A stretch of DNA of 60,403 bases from Bacteroidota bacterium (GTDB taxonomy: Bacteria; Bacteroidota; Bacteroidia; Chitinophagales; Chitinophagaceae): positions 1 through 60,403 of the forward strand of contig JAGWWM010000014.1 of the NCBI GenBank assembly GCA_018970395.1. Direction: 5' to 3'. Each line of letters starts with the position of its first letter. The stretch's first letter is position 1. The notes under the pieces were generated by a model. That model did no database searches and had not been told where the DNA came from. It saw nothing but the letters and a program-made list of their open reading frames with translations. This document shows, piece after piece, positions 3,503-48,186 of the stretch. The position numbers and the translations under genes are program-made.

Positions 3503-3582
3503 ATTTAATTAGTAATTAGAGAATTAATAATTAGCAATCAGACTACCCAATTATTAATTATTAATTACTAAATACTAATTAC
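3503..3582. repeat. Heptad-type AT-rich intergenic repeat (AATTANT words)
   Basis: The gap between serA and the der promoter consists largely of AATTAGT, AATTATT, AATTACT and related 7-mers in tandem, interrupted once by a short non-repeat stretch. Same family as the arrays at 5040, 33223, 43229, 45987 and 46924. Confidence 0.8.
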
Positions 3583-5039: not shown

Positions 5040-5074
5040 CCAATTATTAATTACTAATTACTAATTATTAATTA
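5040..5074. repeat. Heptad repeat abutting the M43 protease start
   Basis: Tandem AATTATT / AATTACT words run right up to the ATG at 5076, so the repeat occupies the place of the ribosome-binding region. Bacteroidota often have A-rich rather than Shine-Dalgarno translation starts, so this may be functional as a leader. Confidence 0.75.
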
Positions 5075-7860: not shown

Positions 7861-7890
7861 TAAAAAGTTTAAACTTAAAACTTAAAAGAA
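7861..7890. repeat. Heptad repeat of ACTTAAA words
   Basis: Downstream of the protease gene, 7-nt words of the type AGTTTAA and ACTTAAA follow each other. The word differs from the AATTACT arrays but the period (7) is the same. Confidence 0.6.
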
Positions 7891-7944: not shown

Positions 7945-8018
<74 letters not shown>

Positions 8019-8026
8019 CAAAAGAT

Positions 8027-10752: not shown

Positions 10753-10810
10753 GTTGTGGGTTGTTGGTTGTAGGTTATTATTATTTATTAATTACTAATT
10801 ACTAATTATC
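10753..10810. repeat. Composite heptad repeat (GTTGTNN then AATTACT words)
   Basis: Between tsaC and argS, GTTGTGG/GTTGTTG/GTTGTAG words change over to AATTACT/AATTATC words, all in 7-nt register. The array ends 3 bp before the tsaC stop codon. Confidence 0.8.
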
Positions 10811-16552: not shown

Positions 16553-16553
16553 A

Positions 16554-16586
16554 ACCTACAACTTACAACCTACAACTTTCAACCTT
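16554..16586. repeat. Heptad repeat of CTACAAC / TTACAAC words
   Basis: The 43-bp gap between the convergent radical SAM and patatin genes is filled by CTACAAC, TTACAAC and TTTCAAC 7-mers, the reverse complement of the GTTGTNN class seen at 10753 and 43229. Confidence 0.75.
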
Positions 16587-26127: not shown

Positions 26128-26153
26128 AAGCCTCCGCGAAGCGGAGGCTTTTT
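26128..26153 (+). terminator. Rho-independent terminator of sdhCAB
   Basis: AAGCCTCCGC / GCGGAGGCTT with loop GAA, then TTT-C-TTTTT. Strong 10-bp GC-rich stem. Confidence 0.9.
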
Positions 26154-26227
26154 CGTTTTTCGTTGTCCGTTTTTCGTTGTTGTTCGATTACTCTAGCTCT
26201 TTTCAATCACAACCATACAATAAATTG

Positions 26228-33222: not shown

Positions 33223-33286
33223 TAATTCTCAATTGTAATTACTAATTATTAATTACTAATTACTAATTACTAATTATTAATTATCC
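33223..33286. repeat. Heptad repeat array (ATTACTA words)
   Basis: About nine consecutive 7-nt units (ATTACTA, ATTATTA, AATTCTC and variants) fill the gap between the divergent amn and HsdR_N-like genes and end 4 bp before the ATG of the latter. Confidence 0.85.
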
Positions 33287-41457: not shown

Positions 41458-42501
41458 GTGCCGACAAATATTCTTGCGATAGAAAGTTCCTGTGATGAAA
41501 CCGCTGCATCTGTTTGCAGCGAGGGGCGCATTATTTCCAATGTAATTGCTTCTCAATCGGTGCATGAATTATACGGCGGTGTAGTGCCCGAACTCGCGAG
41601 TCGCGCTCATATGGAACAGATCATTCCGGTTGTAGAAAAAGCATTAAATGATGCAGCGATTAGTTCGCAGCAATTGGATGCCATAGCATTTACTCAGTCA
41701 CCCGGATTAATCGGATCATTATTGGTAGGAGCTCAGTTTGCCAAGTCAATGGCACTGGCACTTGATAAGCCACTTATTGCTGTGCATCACATGCAGGCGC
41801 ATGTGTTGGCCAATCTGATTCCGGAGCGAAAACCTGCCTTTCCTTTTTTATGTCTTACCGTTAGCGGCGGACATACACAAATTGTTTTGTGCGAATCTCC
41901 TTTGCATCTCAAAGTATTGGGTGAAACAATTGATGATGCTGCAGGAGAGGCTTTTGATAAATCTGCTAAGTTGTTGGGGTTGCCTTATCCTGGCGGCCCA
42001 TTGATTGATCGCTATGCAGCTGAAGGGAATTTCAAGCGATTTAAGTTTCCCGAGCCTAAAGTGCCAGGACTGAATTTTAGTTTTAGTGGATTAAAGACAG
42101 CCATTCTCTACTTCCTGCAAAATGCAGGCAAGAGCATGGTGTATAAAGAGCAGTTTCTTGCGTCAGTAGAAGAAAAAAATAATTTCATTCAATCTAATCT
42201 GTCAGATTTATGTGCAAGTATTCAGCAGGCCATTATTCAAATCTTGTTACACAAATTGGAAATGGCAGTAGAGCAGACAGGTATCACGAGTATTTGTCTG
42301 GCAGGAGGAGTAAGTGCCAATAGGGGACTAAGAACCGCACTGGAATCAGCAGGAAGGAAAAATGGATGGGAAACATTTATACCTTCTTTTGAGTATTGTA
42401 CGGATAATGCGGCAATGATTGCCATAACCGCTTATTATAAATGGCTGGCCAAAGATTTTGTCTCACTCGATACAAGTCCTTCTGCGCGTGCTCATTGGTA
42501 A
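41458..42501 (+). CDS. tsaD: tRNA N6-adenosine threonylcarbamoyltransferase
   Basis: Attaches threonylcarbamoyl to A37 of ANN-decoding tRNAs (t6A). 347 residues with ILAIESSCDETAASV at the start, the metal-binding HHMQAHVLA and GGHTQIVL, DDAAGEAFDKSAKLLGLPYPGG, and the C-terminal LAGGVSANRGLR with TDNAAMIA. The start codon is GTG at 41458, chosen as the only one that keeps the conserved N-terminus. 27 bp follow the ABC permease, with a TTACTTTGC near-consensus -7 box in that gap. Its substrate donor enzyme tsaC is at 10814. Confidence 0.96.
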   Translation: MPTNILAIESSCDETAASVCSEGRIISNVIASQSVHELYGGVVPELASRAHMEQIIPVVEKALNDAAISSQQLDAIAFTQSPGLIGSLLVGAQFAKSMALALDKPLIAVHHMQAHVLANLIPERKPAFPFLCLTVSGGHTQIVLCESPLHLKVLGETIDDAAGEAFDKSAKLLGLPYPGGPLIDRYAAEGNFKRFKFPEPKVPGLNFSFSGLKTAILYFLQNAGKSMVYKEQFLASVEEKNNFIQSNLSDLCASIQQAIIQILLHKLEMAVEQTGITSICLAGGVSANRGLRTALESAGRKNGWETFIPSFEYCTDNAAMIAITAYYKWLAKDFVSLDTSPSARAHW

Positions 42502-42506
42502 AAAGT

Positions 42507-43223
42507 ATGCCAAACCCGTATTTTCAATTTAAACAGTTTGTGATTTATCAGGATCAGTGTGCGATGAAAGTAAGCACAGACAGTTGTTTGTTTGGTGCCT
42601 GGATCAGTAAAAGAATCATCCCGGGACTAAGCAATATCAGAACCGTGTTGGATATTGGTGTCGGCACCGGTTTGTTGATGCTGATGATGGCGCAGGAACA
42701 TAATTTTGAAATAGATGGTATTGACCTGGATATTTCCGCCTTTCAACAGGCCAGCTCCAATATCTCATTGACAAAATGGAAGGAAAGGCTGCAGTTGTAT
42801 CAGGGAGATGTGAAAGCTTTCACTTTTAATCGACCTTATGATTTGATTATTTCTAATCCGCCCTTTTATGAAAATAATTTACTGCCTCATTCAGAATCAA
42901 AAGCCGCTGCCATGCACGATGCGACTTTAACTTTTGAAGCATTATTGGCTTCCATTGAAAAATGGTTAGCTCCTGAAGGATATGCTGCATTGTTGATTCC
43001 CTATCATCGTTTTGAGTATTTGAAAAATATCTCACAAGTCAAGGGATTTTATATCCGGCAGGCTGTAAATATTCAACACAGATCCGATCATAGGGCTATT
43101 CGAACGATGGTTTTATTGAGCAGAGCTCCTGCTGAACTCAGTATCCGAAATATGGTAATAAAAGAAAATACTGGCCAATATAGTGATGCGTTTATGGAGT
43201 TATTAAGTGGGTATTATTTGTGA
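42507..43223 (+). CDS. trmN6: tRNA1(Val) A37 N6-methyltransferase, TrmN6/YfiC type
   Basis: 238-residue SAM-dependent methyltransferase. SAM-binding VLDIGVGTGLLMLMMAQ is at about 46-62 and the catalytic N-P-P-F motif of N6-adenine methylases at IISNPPFYENN (about 113-123), with the YfiC-like start YFQFKQFVIYQDQCAMKVSTDSCLFGAW. E. coli YfiC methylates A37 of tRNA-Val; whether the target is the same here is inference. It begins 5 bp after tsaD, with ATG at 42507, so both t6A37 and m6A37 enzymes are in one operon. Confidence 0.9.
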   Translation: MPNPYFQFKQFVIYQDQCAMKVSTDSCLFGAWISKRIIPGLSNIRTVLDIGVGTGLLMLMMAQEHNFEIDGIDLDISAFQQASSNISLTKWKERLQLYQGDVKAFTFNRPYDLIISNPPFYENNLLPHSESKAAAMHDATLTFEALLASIEKWLAPEGYAALLIPYHRFEYLKNISQVKGFYIRQAVNIQHRSDHRAIRTMVLLSRAPAELSIRNMVIKENTGQYSDAFMELLSGYYL

Positions 43224-43228
43224 TGGGG

Positions 43229-43340
43229 GATGTTGTGGGTTGTTGGTTATTGGTTGTTGGTTGTAAGTTGTAAGTTGTAAGTTGTGGGTTCTCAATTACT
43301 AATTATTAATTACTAATTATTAATTCCTAATTCCTAATTC
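43229..43340. repeat. Long composite heptad array (GTTGTNN then AATTANT then AATTCCT)
   Basis: The clearest array in the window: about eight GTTNNNN words (GTTGTGG, GTTGTTG, GTTATTG, GTTGTAA) pass over a short junction into AATTACT/AATTATT words and then AATTCCT words, all with a period of 7. It spans the whole gap between trmN6 and polX-like, which are convergent, and runs into the polX-like stop codon (43334-43336). Confidence 0.9.
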
Positions 43341-44968
43341 TTCCTCTCCCTAACATATTTCTCAAATTCCTGTAATGAAAAGCTGCTAAGATTCTGTTGG
43401 GCGGTTAGTCCTGCTTTTCGGGCTACTAGTACGCCGTATTGTATATCGTCGAAGCCGCTGATGGCATGGGCGTCGGGATTGATGGAGATGAGTACATTTT
43501 GACGGAGAGCAGATTTGATATAGCGCCAGTCGATGTCGAGCCTGCGCGGGTGTGCATTCAATTCTAGAACGACATTATTTTCCGCGCAGGCTCTGATGAT
43601 CCGCTCATGGTCAACGGCATACCCCTTCCTGCTTAATAATAACCTGCCGGTTAAATGCCCCAAGATAGTCGTAAACGGATTTTCTATCGCACGCAACAGT
43701 CGCTGCATTGCTTTCTCTTCATTCATGCGCAGATTACTGTGTACAGACGCAATCACTAAATCAAAAAGTTCCAGCGTCTGTGGTGAATAATCCAGTTGTC
43801 CTTCCCCCAAAATATCGCATTCAATACTCTTGAAAATTTTAAAATCCGTCCAACGCTCGTTGAGACTATCTATCAATTCATGCTGCGCTTTAATGCGATC
43901 TTCCTGCAATCCGTTGGCATAATGTGCCGCCTTACTATGATCACTGATGACCAGGTACTCAAAGCCCTTCTTCCTGCATGCTTCCGCCATTTCCTCAATC
44001 GTATTGCTGCCGTCACTCCAGTTGCTATGACTGTGAATGATGCCTTTAATTGAACTCGTTTCAATAAAATCGGGGAGCGGTGCGGTACTCCATTCTTCAC
44101 GATAAAAGGAAGGGATATAGTTCATCTTTCGCACTTCAAAAAGTTGGGCTTCATCTGCTACTGCAGCTACCTCTCCCCAGGCTTTTAAAAACGCTTCGCT
44201 TGACGAAGTTTCAAAAAGTTTTTTTCCAAATGATGCGGCTTCCGTGAGATGAAATAACAATCGTACTCCCTCACGGCTTTTACATCCAATCATAATAGCT
44301 GATGACTCTGTTACTTCAACGCTCGTTTCTTGCAGCCACGCTTTTAGTTTTTCTTCCGGTACGGTTGCTACCCATTCCAGCTTTTCAATGGTTTCCATCT
44401 TTCTTCTGTAAGCTCCTGTCAGCTCAATCCTGGCTTCCGGAAACGCAGTTGTTAATTGGTCATGTAACAATCTTGCATAATCTTCCAGCTCGGCATATAA
44501 ATAGTTGTCGCGGTGCTTGAAGAAAAACTCAATCTGCTCGCGAATGGTTTGCTGTGTTTTTTGTCCAAATCCTTTTACGTTGACAAGACGATTCTCTTCG
44601 CAGGCATATAATAGTTCACCCAGACTTTCAATTCCCATTTCGTGCCAGATGACAGCAATTTTTTTTGGGCCGATACCTTTGACTGACAACATTTCCATCA
44701 CGCCTTGCGGTGTGATTTCCAATAATTGTTTCAGCCGTTTGATTTCTCCGAACTGAAATAGCTCTCTGATTTTTTCTGCTGCACTATTGCCAATTCCTTT
44801 GTAAGTGGCAAATTTTTCAGGCGATACTTCACTTAATTCAATCGGTAATTTGTCGATGGCATAGGCTGCGGATGCATATGCTTTTGCTTTGAATTCATTT
44901 TCCCGATGAATGTCCATCAGTTTGCTCAAAAGAGAAAAATTATCCGAAATTTCCGCATTAGTGATCAT
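43334..44968 (-). CDS. polX: PolX-like protein: HhH, inactivated polymerase domain, intact PHP phosphoesterase
   Basis: 544 residues from the ATG at 44966-44968. Order: helix-hairpin-helix 8-kDa domain and fingers (about 1-150, with LLEITPQGVMEMLSVKGIGPKKIAVIW), palm (about 165-290), PHP domain (about 305-540). The palm has lost the polymerase active site: where bacterial PolX has GS-x-RR and D-L-D, this protein has GAYRR and K-L-E, and the third Asp position reads Leu in GVRLLFHL. The PHP metal ligands are intact (HSHSNWSDG, ISDHSK, ASVHSNL, ELNAHPRRLDID, NPDAH), so a 3'-5' exonuclease/phosphoesterase role remains likely. A -7 box TACCTTTG ends 4 bp from the ATG. Confidence 0.88.
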   Translation of the reverse strand: MITNAEISDNFSLLSKLMDIHRENEFKAKAYASAAYAIDKLPIELSEVSPEKFATYKGIGNSAAEKIRELFQFGEIKRLKQLLEITPQGVMEMLSVKGIGPKKIAVIWHEMGIESLGELLYACEENRLVNVKGFGQKTQQTIREQIEFFFKHRDNYLYAELEDYARLLHDQLTTAFPEARIELTGAYRRKMETIEKLEWVATVPEEKLKAWLQETSVEVTESSAIMIGCKSREGVRLLFHLTEAASFGKKLFETSSSEAFLKAWGEVAAVADEAQLFEVRKMNYIPSFYREEWSTAPLPDFIETSSIKGIIHSHSNWSDGSNTIEEMAEACRKKGFEYLVISDHSKAAHYANGLQEDRIKAQHELIDSLNERWTDFKIFKSIECDILGEGQLDYSPQTLELFDLVIASVHSNLRMNEEKAMQRLLRAIENPFTTILGHLTGRLLLSRKGYAVDHERIIRACAENNVVLELNAHPRRLDIDWRYIKSALRQNVLISINPDAHAISGFDDIQYGVLVARKAGLTAQQNLSSFSLQEFEKYVRERKN

Positions 44969-44972
44969 GCCC

Positions 44973-44980
44973 CAAAGGTA
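44973..44980 (-). promoter_or_regulatory. -7 promoter box of the polX-like gene, very close to the start codon
   Basis: Minus-strand TACCTTTG, exact consensus, separated from ATG by GGGC only. A transcript starting 4-6 bp after the box would be leaderless or nearly so. Confidence 0.55.
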
Positions 44981-44987
44981 AGACGGA

Positions 44988-45004
44988 GAGACGCAATGCA
45001 TTGC
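44988..45004. repeat. Truncated copy of the GAGACGCAAT palindrome
   Basis: GAGACGCAATGCATTGC keeps the left arm and half of the right arm of the palindromes at 37427-37482. It lies about at the -20 to -33 position of the polX-like promoter. Confidence 0.7.
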
Positions 45005-45946: not shown

Positions 45947-45986
45947 AAAGATCAATGAGGAGTAAGATTACGATTTTTTTATTAGC

Positions 45987-46020
45987 AATTATTAATTATT
46001 AATTACTAATTACTAATTTG
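45987..46020. repeat. Heptad repeat (AATTATT/AATTACT words)
   Basis: Four to five tandem 7-nt units in the divergent gap between the SDR gene and the outer-membrane protein gene. Confidence 0.8.
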
Positions 46021-46916: not shown

Positions 46917-46923
46917 AAGGTAT

Positions 46924-47009
46924 CGGTTATCAGTTGTCAGTTATCAATTCGTACCCCAATTACTAATTATTAATTCCTAATTATTAATTCCTAATTCCTA
47001 ATTCCTAAC
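46924..47009. repeat. Composite heptad array running into a coding end
   Basis: GTTATCA/GTTGTCA words, a short break, then AATTACT, AATTATT and six or so AATTCCT units. The stop codon of the minus-strand GT4 gene (46998-47000) and its last three codons are made of the array. Confidence 0.88.
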
Positions 47010-48120: not shown

Positions 48121-48186
48121 TGAGTTAAAAGTTGAAAGTTTGAAAGAGAAATCCGATAACCTGACAACGCCCCGAGTATTCGGGGC
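48121..48186. repeat. Short heptad stretch and GCCCCGA/TCGGGGC hairpin
   Basis: AGTTAAA/AGTTGAA/AGTTTGA words (48121-48147) followed by the dyad GCCCCGA-GTAT-TCGGGGC (48169-48186), no T run. It separates GT2 and GT4 genes on the minus strand and might pause or process the transcript. Confidence 0.6.

Follow-up and report, generated by a model that had tools for sequence, protein, structure and literature searches.

Facing arms of heptamer repeats in the intergenic DNA of a Chitinophagaceae bacterium

Introduction

Heptanucleotides are the most abundant unit of long simple sequence repeats in most genomes, and slippage at the polymerase footprint was proposed as their origin (Mrazek 2007, as described in PMC4679880 and PMC4692102). 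In Xanthomonas and Nostoc, heptamers of the GGGAATC and GGGGA(C/T)T types were described, with 70 (Xcc) and 75 (Xac) two-site convergent cases; the words had been chosen for their G-tracts and form quadruplexes in vitro (Rehm 2015, PMC4692102). Direct repeats of TAACTGA were reported from Beggiatoaceae, Cyanobacteria and five Bacteroidetes (MacGregor 2015, PMC4679880); their arrays show mostly 7-nt indels between two Cyanothece strains and are sometimes mixed with other heptamers (PMC4679880). The accounts in PMC4692102 and PMC4679880, as far as they bear on origin, give no accepted cause for bacterial heptamer repeats and consider quadruplex or translational roles for single words. Separately, template switching between short inverted repeats is described as homogenizing the arms and inverting the spacers (PMC8604942), and loop inversions were reported in rRNA hairpins, bacteria included (PMC8794818). 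The minute inversions of chloroplast DNA are a comparable case of template switching, with the spacer or loop inverted. Arms built of tandem 7-mers are not treated in the relevant parts of these accounts (PMC8604942, PMC8794818).

The window analyzed here is the whole stretch of 60,403 nt, in which a first-pass annotation had noted intergenic arrays of strict 7-nt period at ten places. Like the Xanthomonas heptamers as presented in PMC4692102, these arrays have a 7-nt unit with fixed and variable positions, are mostly intergenic and lie near gene ends, and in both systems convergent pairs occur and divergent gaps are poorer in arrays than convergent ones. Unlike the Xanthomonas words, the dominant ATTAATA and ATTAGTA words have no G-tracts capable of forming a quadruplex, although the rarer GTTGTGG does give GGG. 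Variation in sequence and length is reported for Xanthomonas, but co-varying arms or inverted spacers do not figure in the corresponding parts of that account (PMC4692102). Intergenic heptamer arrays are also common to the TAACTGA repeats and to our genome. In BOGUAY one word dominates and stands just ahead of starts, whereas here many words occur, often in two arms, with a preference for 3' ends: 32 of 51 arrays near genes lie at a 3' end, and some, such as 5042–5074, precede a start codon. In the window, variants of TAACTGA were counted only at 46921–46946, on the other strand. The Mrazek repeats, as described in the two later papers, show no two-arm layout, unlike our arrays, and searches of the open-access literature yielded nothing on a facing heptamer layout in Bacteroidota. 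The view that such arrays are unlike ordinary repeats stands with respect to CRISPR, the units being 7 nt long without spacers and without long identical repeats, which rules out a CRISPR array, but heptamers, some in convergent pairs, had already been described in other bacteria.

Results

Period-7 arrays are concentrated between genes

The assembly comprises 2,417,097 bases in 74 contigs, of which 855,228 bases (the window and 40 stretches) were sampled. Genes were called as the longest ORFs of at least 80 aa, so that their starts are rough. Lag-7 identity was 0.306 in intergenic versus 0.253 in coding DNA of this sample. Only intergenic DNA had local autocorrelation maxima at lags of 7, 14, 21 and 28, as the first-pass annotation had expected; coding DNA showed just its three-base period. 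Between genes, identity at lags 1 and 3 matches or exceeds that at lag 7 (0.343 and 0.308). A lag-7 scan with a segment score of at least 14, a cut-off stricter than that of TRF, detected 54 intergenic segments and 11 inside called ORFs. Other periods from 2 to 15 gave 0–6 intergenic segments each, including 5 arrays of period 8 and 6 of period 14; G022, a relative, had 28 of period 8. Five second-order Markov simulations produced 0.0 intergenic period-7 arrays versus the 54 real ones. Chance or base composition is thus ruled out as their source, and the arrays are heptanucleotide simple sequence repeats, that is, tandem 7-nt units beyond chance.

Array density was 0.834 per kb of intergenic DNA versus 0.0139 per kb in ORFs; the earlier description of the arrays as intergenic only is therefore nearly right, but 11 arrays lie in ORFs and some of these lie deep. 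Part of the 11 look like over-extended ORF starts. Arrays of GTTGGAG/GTTGTAG words were seen deep inside long ORFs of 853 and 835 aa (C29:64820–64862 and C8:33007–33076). At all ten places in the window TRF reported a period-7 row. The stricter scan recovered 8 arrays at seven of them, whereas those at 7863, 16553 and 48123 fell below the cut-off; the TRF rows at 7863–7887 (score 36) and 48123–48146 (score 32) are weak.

Words vary around a conserved start of the unit

The two dominant word classes are GTTGTNN and TAATTAN. TAATTAN words have a palindromic core, and their last base is usually Y when read on one strand and R on the opposite one. The commonest words were ATTAATA (82 units), ATTAGTA (60) and GTTGTAG (22), and GTTGTGG accounted for 3 of 271 units. 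The pattern RTTNNNR fits the consensus word of 48 of the 54 arrays and 251 of the 271 single units; 34% of random intergenic heptamers fit it in some rotation. Between adjacent units, 1–4% of comparisons showed a difference at positions 1–3 and 45% showed one at position 5, with the unit register set on the consensus, which somewhat favors the RTT positions. A called stop codon is entered by 21 of the 54 arrays, among them the one at 43334. It had been proposed that words change while the register stays. Where GTT words give way to ATT words, the phase is preserved at 43229 (0 mod 7) but lost at 10753 (3 mod 7), and a constant register across a word change is therefore not general.

These words bear on the second idea of the first-pass annotation, a selected spacing of about two thirds of a helical turn. 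Protein binding sites on DNA or RNA with a selected 7-bp spacing would be in line with the nearly fixed positions 1–3 (given the register set on the consensus) and with the translational regulator that MacGregor considered for TAACTGA, which stands just upstream of BOGUAY start codons (PMC4679880). A fixed binding site would not predict words that vary within an array, between arms and between species, so the helical spacing found no support, and the arrays here prefer 3' ends, not starts. We consider such sites very unlikely as the explanation; arms that seem to change jointly between two related species, and spacers that seem able to invert (both described below), point to DNA copying and not to a protein ruler.

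Arrays of the window and their flanking genes

The most conspicuous array of the window is a dyad in which GTT words are followed by ATTAY words, adjoining the stops of two convergent genes. Its left, forward arm (43232–43292, plus strand; GTTGTGG, GTTGTTG, GTTATTG and GTTGTAA) starts 8 nt past the stop of a gene for a small methyltransferase domain protein (42441–43223, plus strand; Pfam PF05175). Its right, reverse arm (43294–43340, minus strand; ATTACTA, ATTATTA and ATTCCTA) enters the stop codon of a minus-strand gene (43334–45001) encoding a protein with helix-hairpin-helix and PHP domains (Pfam HHH_8, HHH_5 and PHP), which we take from this domain set to be DNA polymerase X-like. The best identity of this protein was 54%, to Chitinophagaceae MAG proteins, in a search that may omit near relatives; a Chitinophagaceae-like host is accordingly probable.

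Further dyads were found at three places. At the first, a degenerate left arm of ATTAGTA/ATTAATA words (3505–3540, plus strand), detected by TRF and contributing one strict unit to the layout count, faces a right arm of ATTATTA/ATTACTA words (3549–3582, minus strand) detected by TRF and the lag-7 scan. At the second, a left arm of GTTGTGG, GTTGTTG and GTTGTAG (10753–10776, plus strand; TRF and layout count) is followed, out of phase, by a right arm of ATTAYTA words (10778–10808, minus strand). At the third, a left arm of GTTATCA/GTTGTCA words (46921–46946, plus strand), GTTATCA being a rotation of the reverse complement of TAACTGA, precedes a right arm of ATTACTA, ATTATTA and ATTCCTA (46958–47008, minus strand) that enters the stop of a minus-strand glycosyltransferase gene; these two arms were paired by eye, as the left-arm words miss the strict unit count.

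Single minus-strand arms were made of ATTAYTA words directly ahead of a start codon (5042–5074; TRF and lag-7 scan), of AACCTAC/AACTTAC between convergent genes (16553–16585; below the score-14 cut-off) and of ATTAYTA words between divergent genes (33236–33284), an exception to the 3'-end preference. A second such exception is the reverse arm of ATTAYTA words at 45987–46018 (minus strand), also between divergent genes; one GTT unit stands to its right, so that its gap (45956) counts as opposite in order. Two arrays were listed without strand: a weak AAAACTT array (7863–7887) upstream of a tRNA-Ala gene (7945–8019), and a short AAGTTGA array (48123–48146) in the called N-terminus of a TTG-start ORF, whose start was possibly called too far upstream. 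Pfam matches were obtained for 9 of 10 proteins flanking the window arrays and share no common theme. A TCGTTTT-type array that is absent from the first-pass list was also observed at 26149–26180, after a terminator-like hairpin, and TCGTTNN arms facing CGAGCAA/AAACGAT words recur elsewhere in the genome (C1:71713, C1:67516 and C30:14705).

Forward words precede reverse words within a gap

Arrays frequently consist of two arms that face each other, a layout that the first-pass annotation had missed. Within the window, forward words are followed by reverse words in the gaps at 3503, 10710 and 43224 and, by eye, in that at 46917; the gap at 45956 is contrary. Across the 403 gaps of the sample, with GTT and ATTAR taken as forward words, the forward arm lay to the left of the reverse arm in all 20 gaps that had two or more units each way (P = 2 × 10−6), and in 32 of 37 gaps that had one or more. 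The orientations of the genes flanking the 20 gaps were ++ (7), +− (6), −− (5) and −+ (2). Because TAATTAN arms were assigned a direction only once the gaps had been inspected, gaps with only GTT/AAC words are the cleaner test: they were forward-then-reverse in 7 of 7 cases with at least two units and 13 of 16 with at least one. A further 39 gaps had one direction only (at least two units), 27 on the expected side and 12 on the other. Ten array pairs sharing one gap comprised 5 inverted, 3 tied and 2 direct pairs.

The same order was seen in relatives. In G022, same-word pairs within 400 nt were forward-then-reverse in 27 of 27 cases (19 TTGAAAR and 8 AATTARG), and three other words tried there gave no same-word pair within 400 nt. 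Many arrays of G022 lack a partner: the 19 TTGAAAR pairs came from 33 forward and 26 reverse arrays of that word. Thirty array pairs sharing one G022 gap comprised 29 inverted, 1 tied and 0 direct pairs. Plus/minus pairs within 600 nt were also counted by hand: all 15 in G039 (first 100 of 336 places) were forward-then-reverse, as were all 10 in G040 (first 50 of 297 places). Of 33 pairs with clear composition in 440 kb of G022, 31 were purine-rich then pyrimidine-rich, 2 were of one kind and 0 were the reverse; in our sample the corresponding figures were 3 of 4, with 1 of one kind.

One explanation for such an order is that the arrays are scars of double-strand breaks, each 3' end having been extended by a templated 7-mer in a telomere-like manner before the ends were joined into facing arrays. 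It would accommodate the finding that, in all 20 two-direction gaps, the forward strand extends 3' into the gap from both flanking genes. It would also accommodate the 8 gaps, among 28 forward-then-reverse ones whose arms are each of a single word class, in which the two arms differ in class (the excess of same-class arms in our genome had P = 0.053). The matched order of words in the two arms and the inverted spacers described below would require a further process, and we rate this as the least likely of the explanations considered.

Arrays favor gene 3' ends and are predicted to fold strongly in G022

Arrays were present in 13 of 51 convergent gaps (25.5%), 36 of 258 tandem gaps and 4 of 94 divergent gaps (4.3%) of our sample (convergent versus divergent, P = 0.0003). 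In G022 they were present in 19 of 50 convergent (38%), 53 of 178 tandem and 10 of 52 divergent gaps (19%; P = 0.048), within a region (C2:440001–880000) picked around a stretch, 620001–640000, that had itself been chosen on hits. Arrays within 25 nt of a gene end numbered 32 at 3' and 19 at 5' ends in our genome (P = 0.014), and 62 and 27 in G022 (P = 0.0006).

Computed folds of G022 gaps with arrays had a median z of −8.6 when convergent (16 gaps) and −4.5 when tandem, versus −2.8 and −1.5 without arrays. In our genome the values were −1.2 (13 convergent gaps) and −2.0 with arrays, versus −1.3 and −0.5 without, and the dyad at 43232–43340 folded with a z of −1.5. Predicted fold strength speaks for a possible terminator-like role in G022, and hardly does so in our genome. 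In our genome a hairpin is not supported as a requirement, since most folds show little pairing between arms that differ in class.

That convergent gaps are richest in arrays and divergent gaps poorest would also follow from neutral tandem slippage, in which 7-mers expand where they are harmless and survive in gaps at gene ends because neither promoters nor coding DNA are affected there, the dyads having no function. The 39 gaps with a single direction agree with this. Neutral slippage, however, predicts neither the forward-then-reverse order (20 of 20 and 27 of 27) nor the match of arms within a gap; we regard it as possible but doubtful.

Array density and words differ among relatives

The TAATTAY pattern TAATTAYTAATTAYTAATTAYTAATT was present in 16 of 294 family genomes. 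Its counts (backward control in brackets) were 77 (10) in G000, 83 (47) in G039, 24 (14) in G040 and 17 (8) in G022, and 0 in five same-genus genomes drawn. Intergenic arrays numbered 75 per 400 kb in G022 versus 3 each in G003 and G017, 5 of the 20 G022 stretches in this count having been chosen because of search hits. Both the confinement of TAATTAY and a density that differs more than tenfold between relatives are in keeping with neutral slippage. Places with three TTGAAAR units numbered 838 in G022, 336 in G039 and 297 in G040, and those with three GTTGAGA units 21, 193 and 0, respectively; the backward control for GTTGAGA was high because the array reads almost alike backward. The shift from TTGAAAR to GTTGAGA is incomplete genome-wide.

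The 838 TTGAAAR places in G022, and the common order of arm words at several loci there, the AATGA end included, are what a dispersed inverted-repeat element would leave, that is, a MITE- or REP-like element whose heptamer-armed copies were inserted between genes by a transposase. Against it, the spacers of the G022 loci are mostly unrelated, and about 10 of 28 loci, their ends compared by eye, showed no target duplication. Nor do matches to Y1 transposases track array density, with 1 match in G000, 3, 6 and 3 in G022, G039 and G040 (some broken), and 0–8 in nine other genomes; a Y1/REP transposase is thus an improbable mover. In addition, gap 50 has the inner AAAAGTCGCAT hairpin in both G022 and G039, while its arm words differ. 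Insertion of such an element is, in our judgment, unlikely.

The two arms often appear to change words together between species

Gaps of our genome could not be aligned, because its nearest relatives match at about 70% DNA identity (one gene). G022 and G039, of genus g10, have a common gene order here, and the flanks of the compared gaps are mostly 86–97% identical. An ortholog was found for 46 of 68 gaps: arrays were in both species in 13, in G022 only in 3, in G039 only in 2 and in neither in 28. Gaps 36, 39, 44, 50 and 56 have TTGAAAR on both sides in G022 and GTTGAGA-type words on both sides in G039, so that both arms carry another word in G039 at all five of the compared gaps where TTGAAAR flanks both sides in G022. 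In gaps 18, 32, 37 and 58 the words were unchanged between the two species, and in gap 61 the two G022 arms bear unlike words.

Arms matched those of their own gap better than those of other gaps, with mean scores of 15.7 versus 10.0 in G022 (permutation P = 0.0001) and 15.0 versus 9.4 in G039 (P = 0.0002), in 14 gaps that were chosen for having arrays out of the 46 with an ortholog. Homogenization of the arms, as described for template switching, was thus apparent in genus g10 only. The slippage-type growth put forward in the first-pass annotation is plausible: for the array of gap 37, the one array measured, the difference in length from G022 was 49 nt (7 × 7) in G039 but 6 nt in G040.

Spacers appear inverted between species

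One piece of each G039 gap was inverted and the gain in global alignment was compared with that from reversing or complementing a piece, in 28 gaps of 40–300 nt in both species; the maximum gain among 56 controls was 11.5. The gain exceeded every control in four of the 28 gaps, namely gaps 8 (27.0), 60 (21.5), 17 (18.0) and 45 (16.0), of which gap 8 alone has heptamer arms. There, a 25-nt stretch of the loop aligns with one mismatch in the inverted orientation only, and an alignment score confined to the inner part favored inversion at gap 8 only. Gap 18, also with heptamer arms, gave a gain of 11.0 versus 2.0 and 3.0 for its own controls; its arms and loop align at 58 of 61 positions once inverted, and it is likely a second heptamer-armed spacer inversion, judging from the alignment. 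Gap 46 had a gain of 11.0 but is a plain palindrome. Gap 50 was rejected as a spacer inversion, its gain of 9.5 being no better than a control of 8.0, and gaps 32, 41 and 58, with alignable spacers, showed no inversion (gain 0–4). Spacers that appear inverted were, like the co-varying arms, seen in genus g10 only.

The words of gaps 17 and 45 are about 8 nt long, and gap 60 is flanked by GGGCGAAT palindromes. Nested dyads, with heptamer arms outside and period-8/9 words or a GGGCGAAT palindrome inside, were observed at L143:5059–5177 and in other G022 gaps; spacers within such inner words can also flip between species (gaps 17, 45 and 60).

Discussion

The 7-nt period, the orientation rule and the preference for 3' ends were observed in our own genome, where arrays fill gaps at gene ends as arms of a dyad or as single arms, and paired arms face each other whichever way the genes run. 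The account we lean towards is that slippage multiplies the 7-mers, that the two arms are kept similar by template switching, and that gene ends retain the dyads, which perhaps act as terminator-like hairpins. Slippage, the simplest plausible source of 7-nt steps, would add or remove units, mostly 7 nt each time. Where the arms match, replication may switch template between them, copying the word of one arm into the other and sometimes inverting the spacer. The combination of matched arms and inverted spacers is the published signature of template switching (PMC8604942; for inverted loops, PMC8794818), and both features were seen in genus g10. The dyads may be tolerated, or kept, mainly at gene 3' ends; in the RNA, matched arms could pair into a hairpin rich in purines on its 5' side and in pyrimidines on its 3' side, like that of a bidirectional terminator. 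Template switching gives no account of purine-first arms, whereas a role at the RNA level such as bidirectional termination would. In our own genome several observations speak against this account: the 39 gaps with a single direction (versus 20 with both), the direct pairs among arrays sharing a gap, arms that differ in word class and the weak folds. In genus g10, the different words of the two G022 arms in gap 61 and the 6-nt length difference in gap 37 do so too.

The facing rule for AT-rich words, a joint change of word in both arms and the inversion of spacers in such arrays were not found in searches of the open-access literature and appear to be new. AT-rich words in the same facing layout argue against quadruplexes as a general cause. 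Jointly changing arms and flipping spacers amount to a testable mutational mechanism, and the arrays may offer a natural setting for the origin of RNA hairpins without paired point mutations. More tentatively, facing heptamer arms of distant bacteria might all belong to a single general class of intergenic dyads that renew themselves, in which slippage supplies the 7-mers, template switching rewrites one arm from the other and inverts the spacer, and many loci of a genome change words in concert, so that the process, not the sequence, would be inherited.

Loss of the hairpin nuclease SbcD as a cause of the arrays was rejected, since SbcD exceeded its curated cut-off only in the array-rich G000 and was below it or absent in 12 others; the match in G000 (C46:2220–3005) stands alone among the 13 genomes compared. 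A dispersed long dyad with GTCATSYTGAGCG-like ends and CAAAAGT-type arms at its center was also observed, in both orientations, in our genome (C1:67516–67906, C1:94491–94869, and C30:7575, 8685 and 10035).
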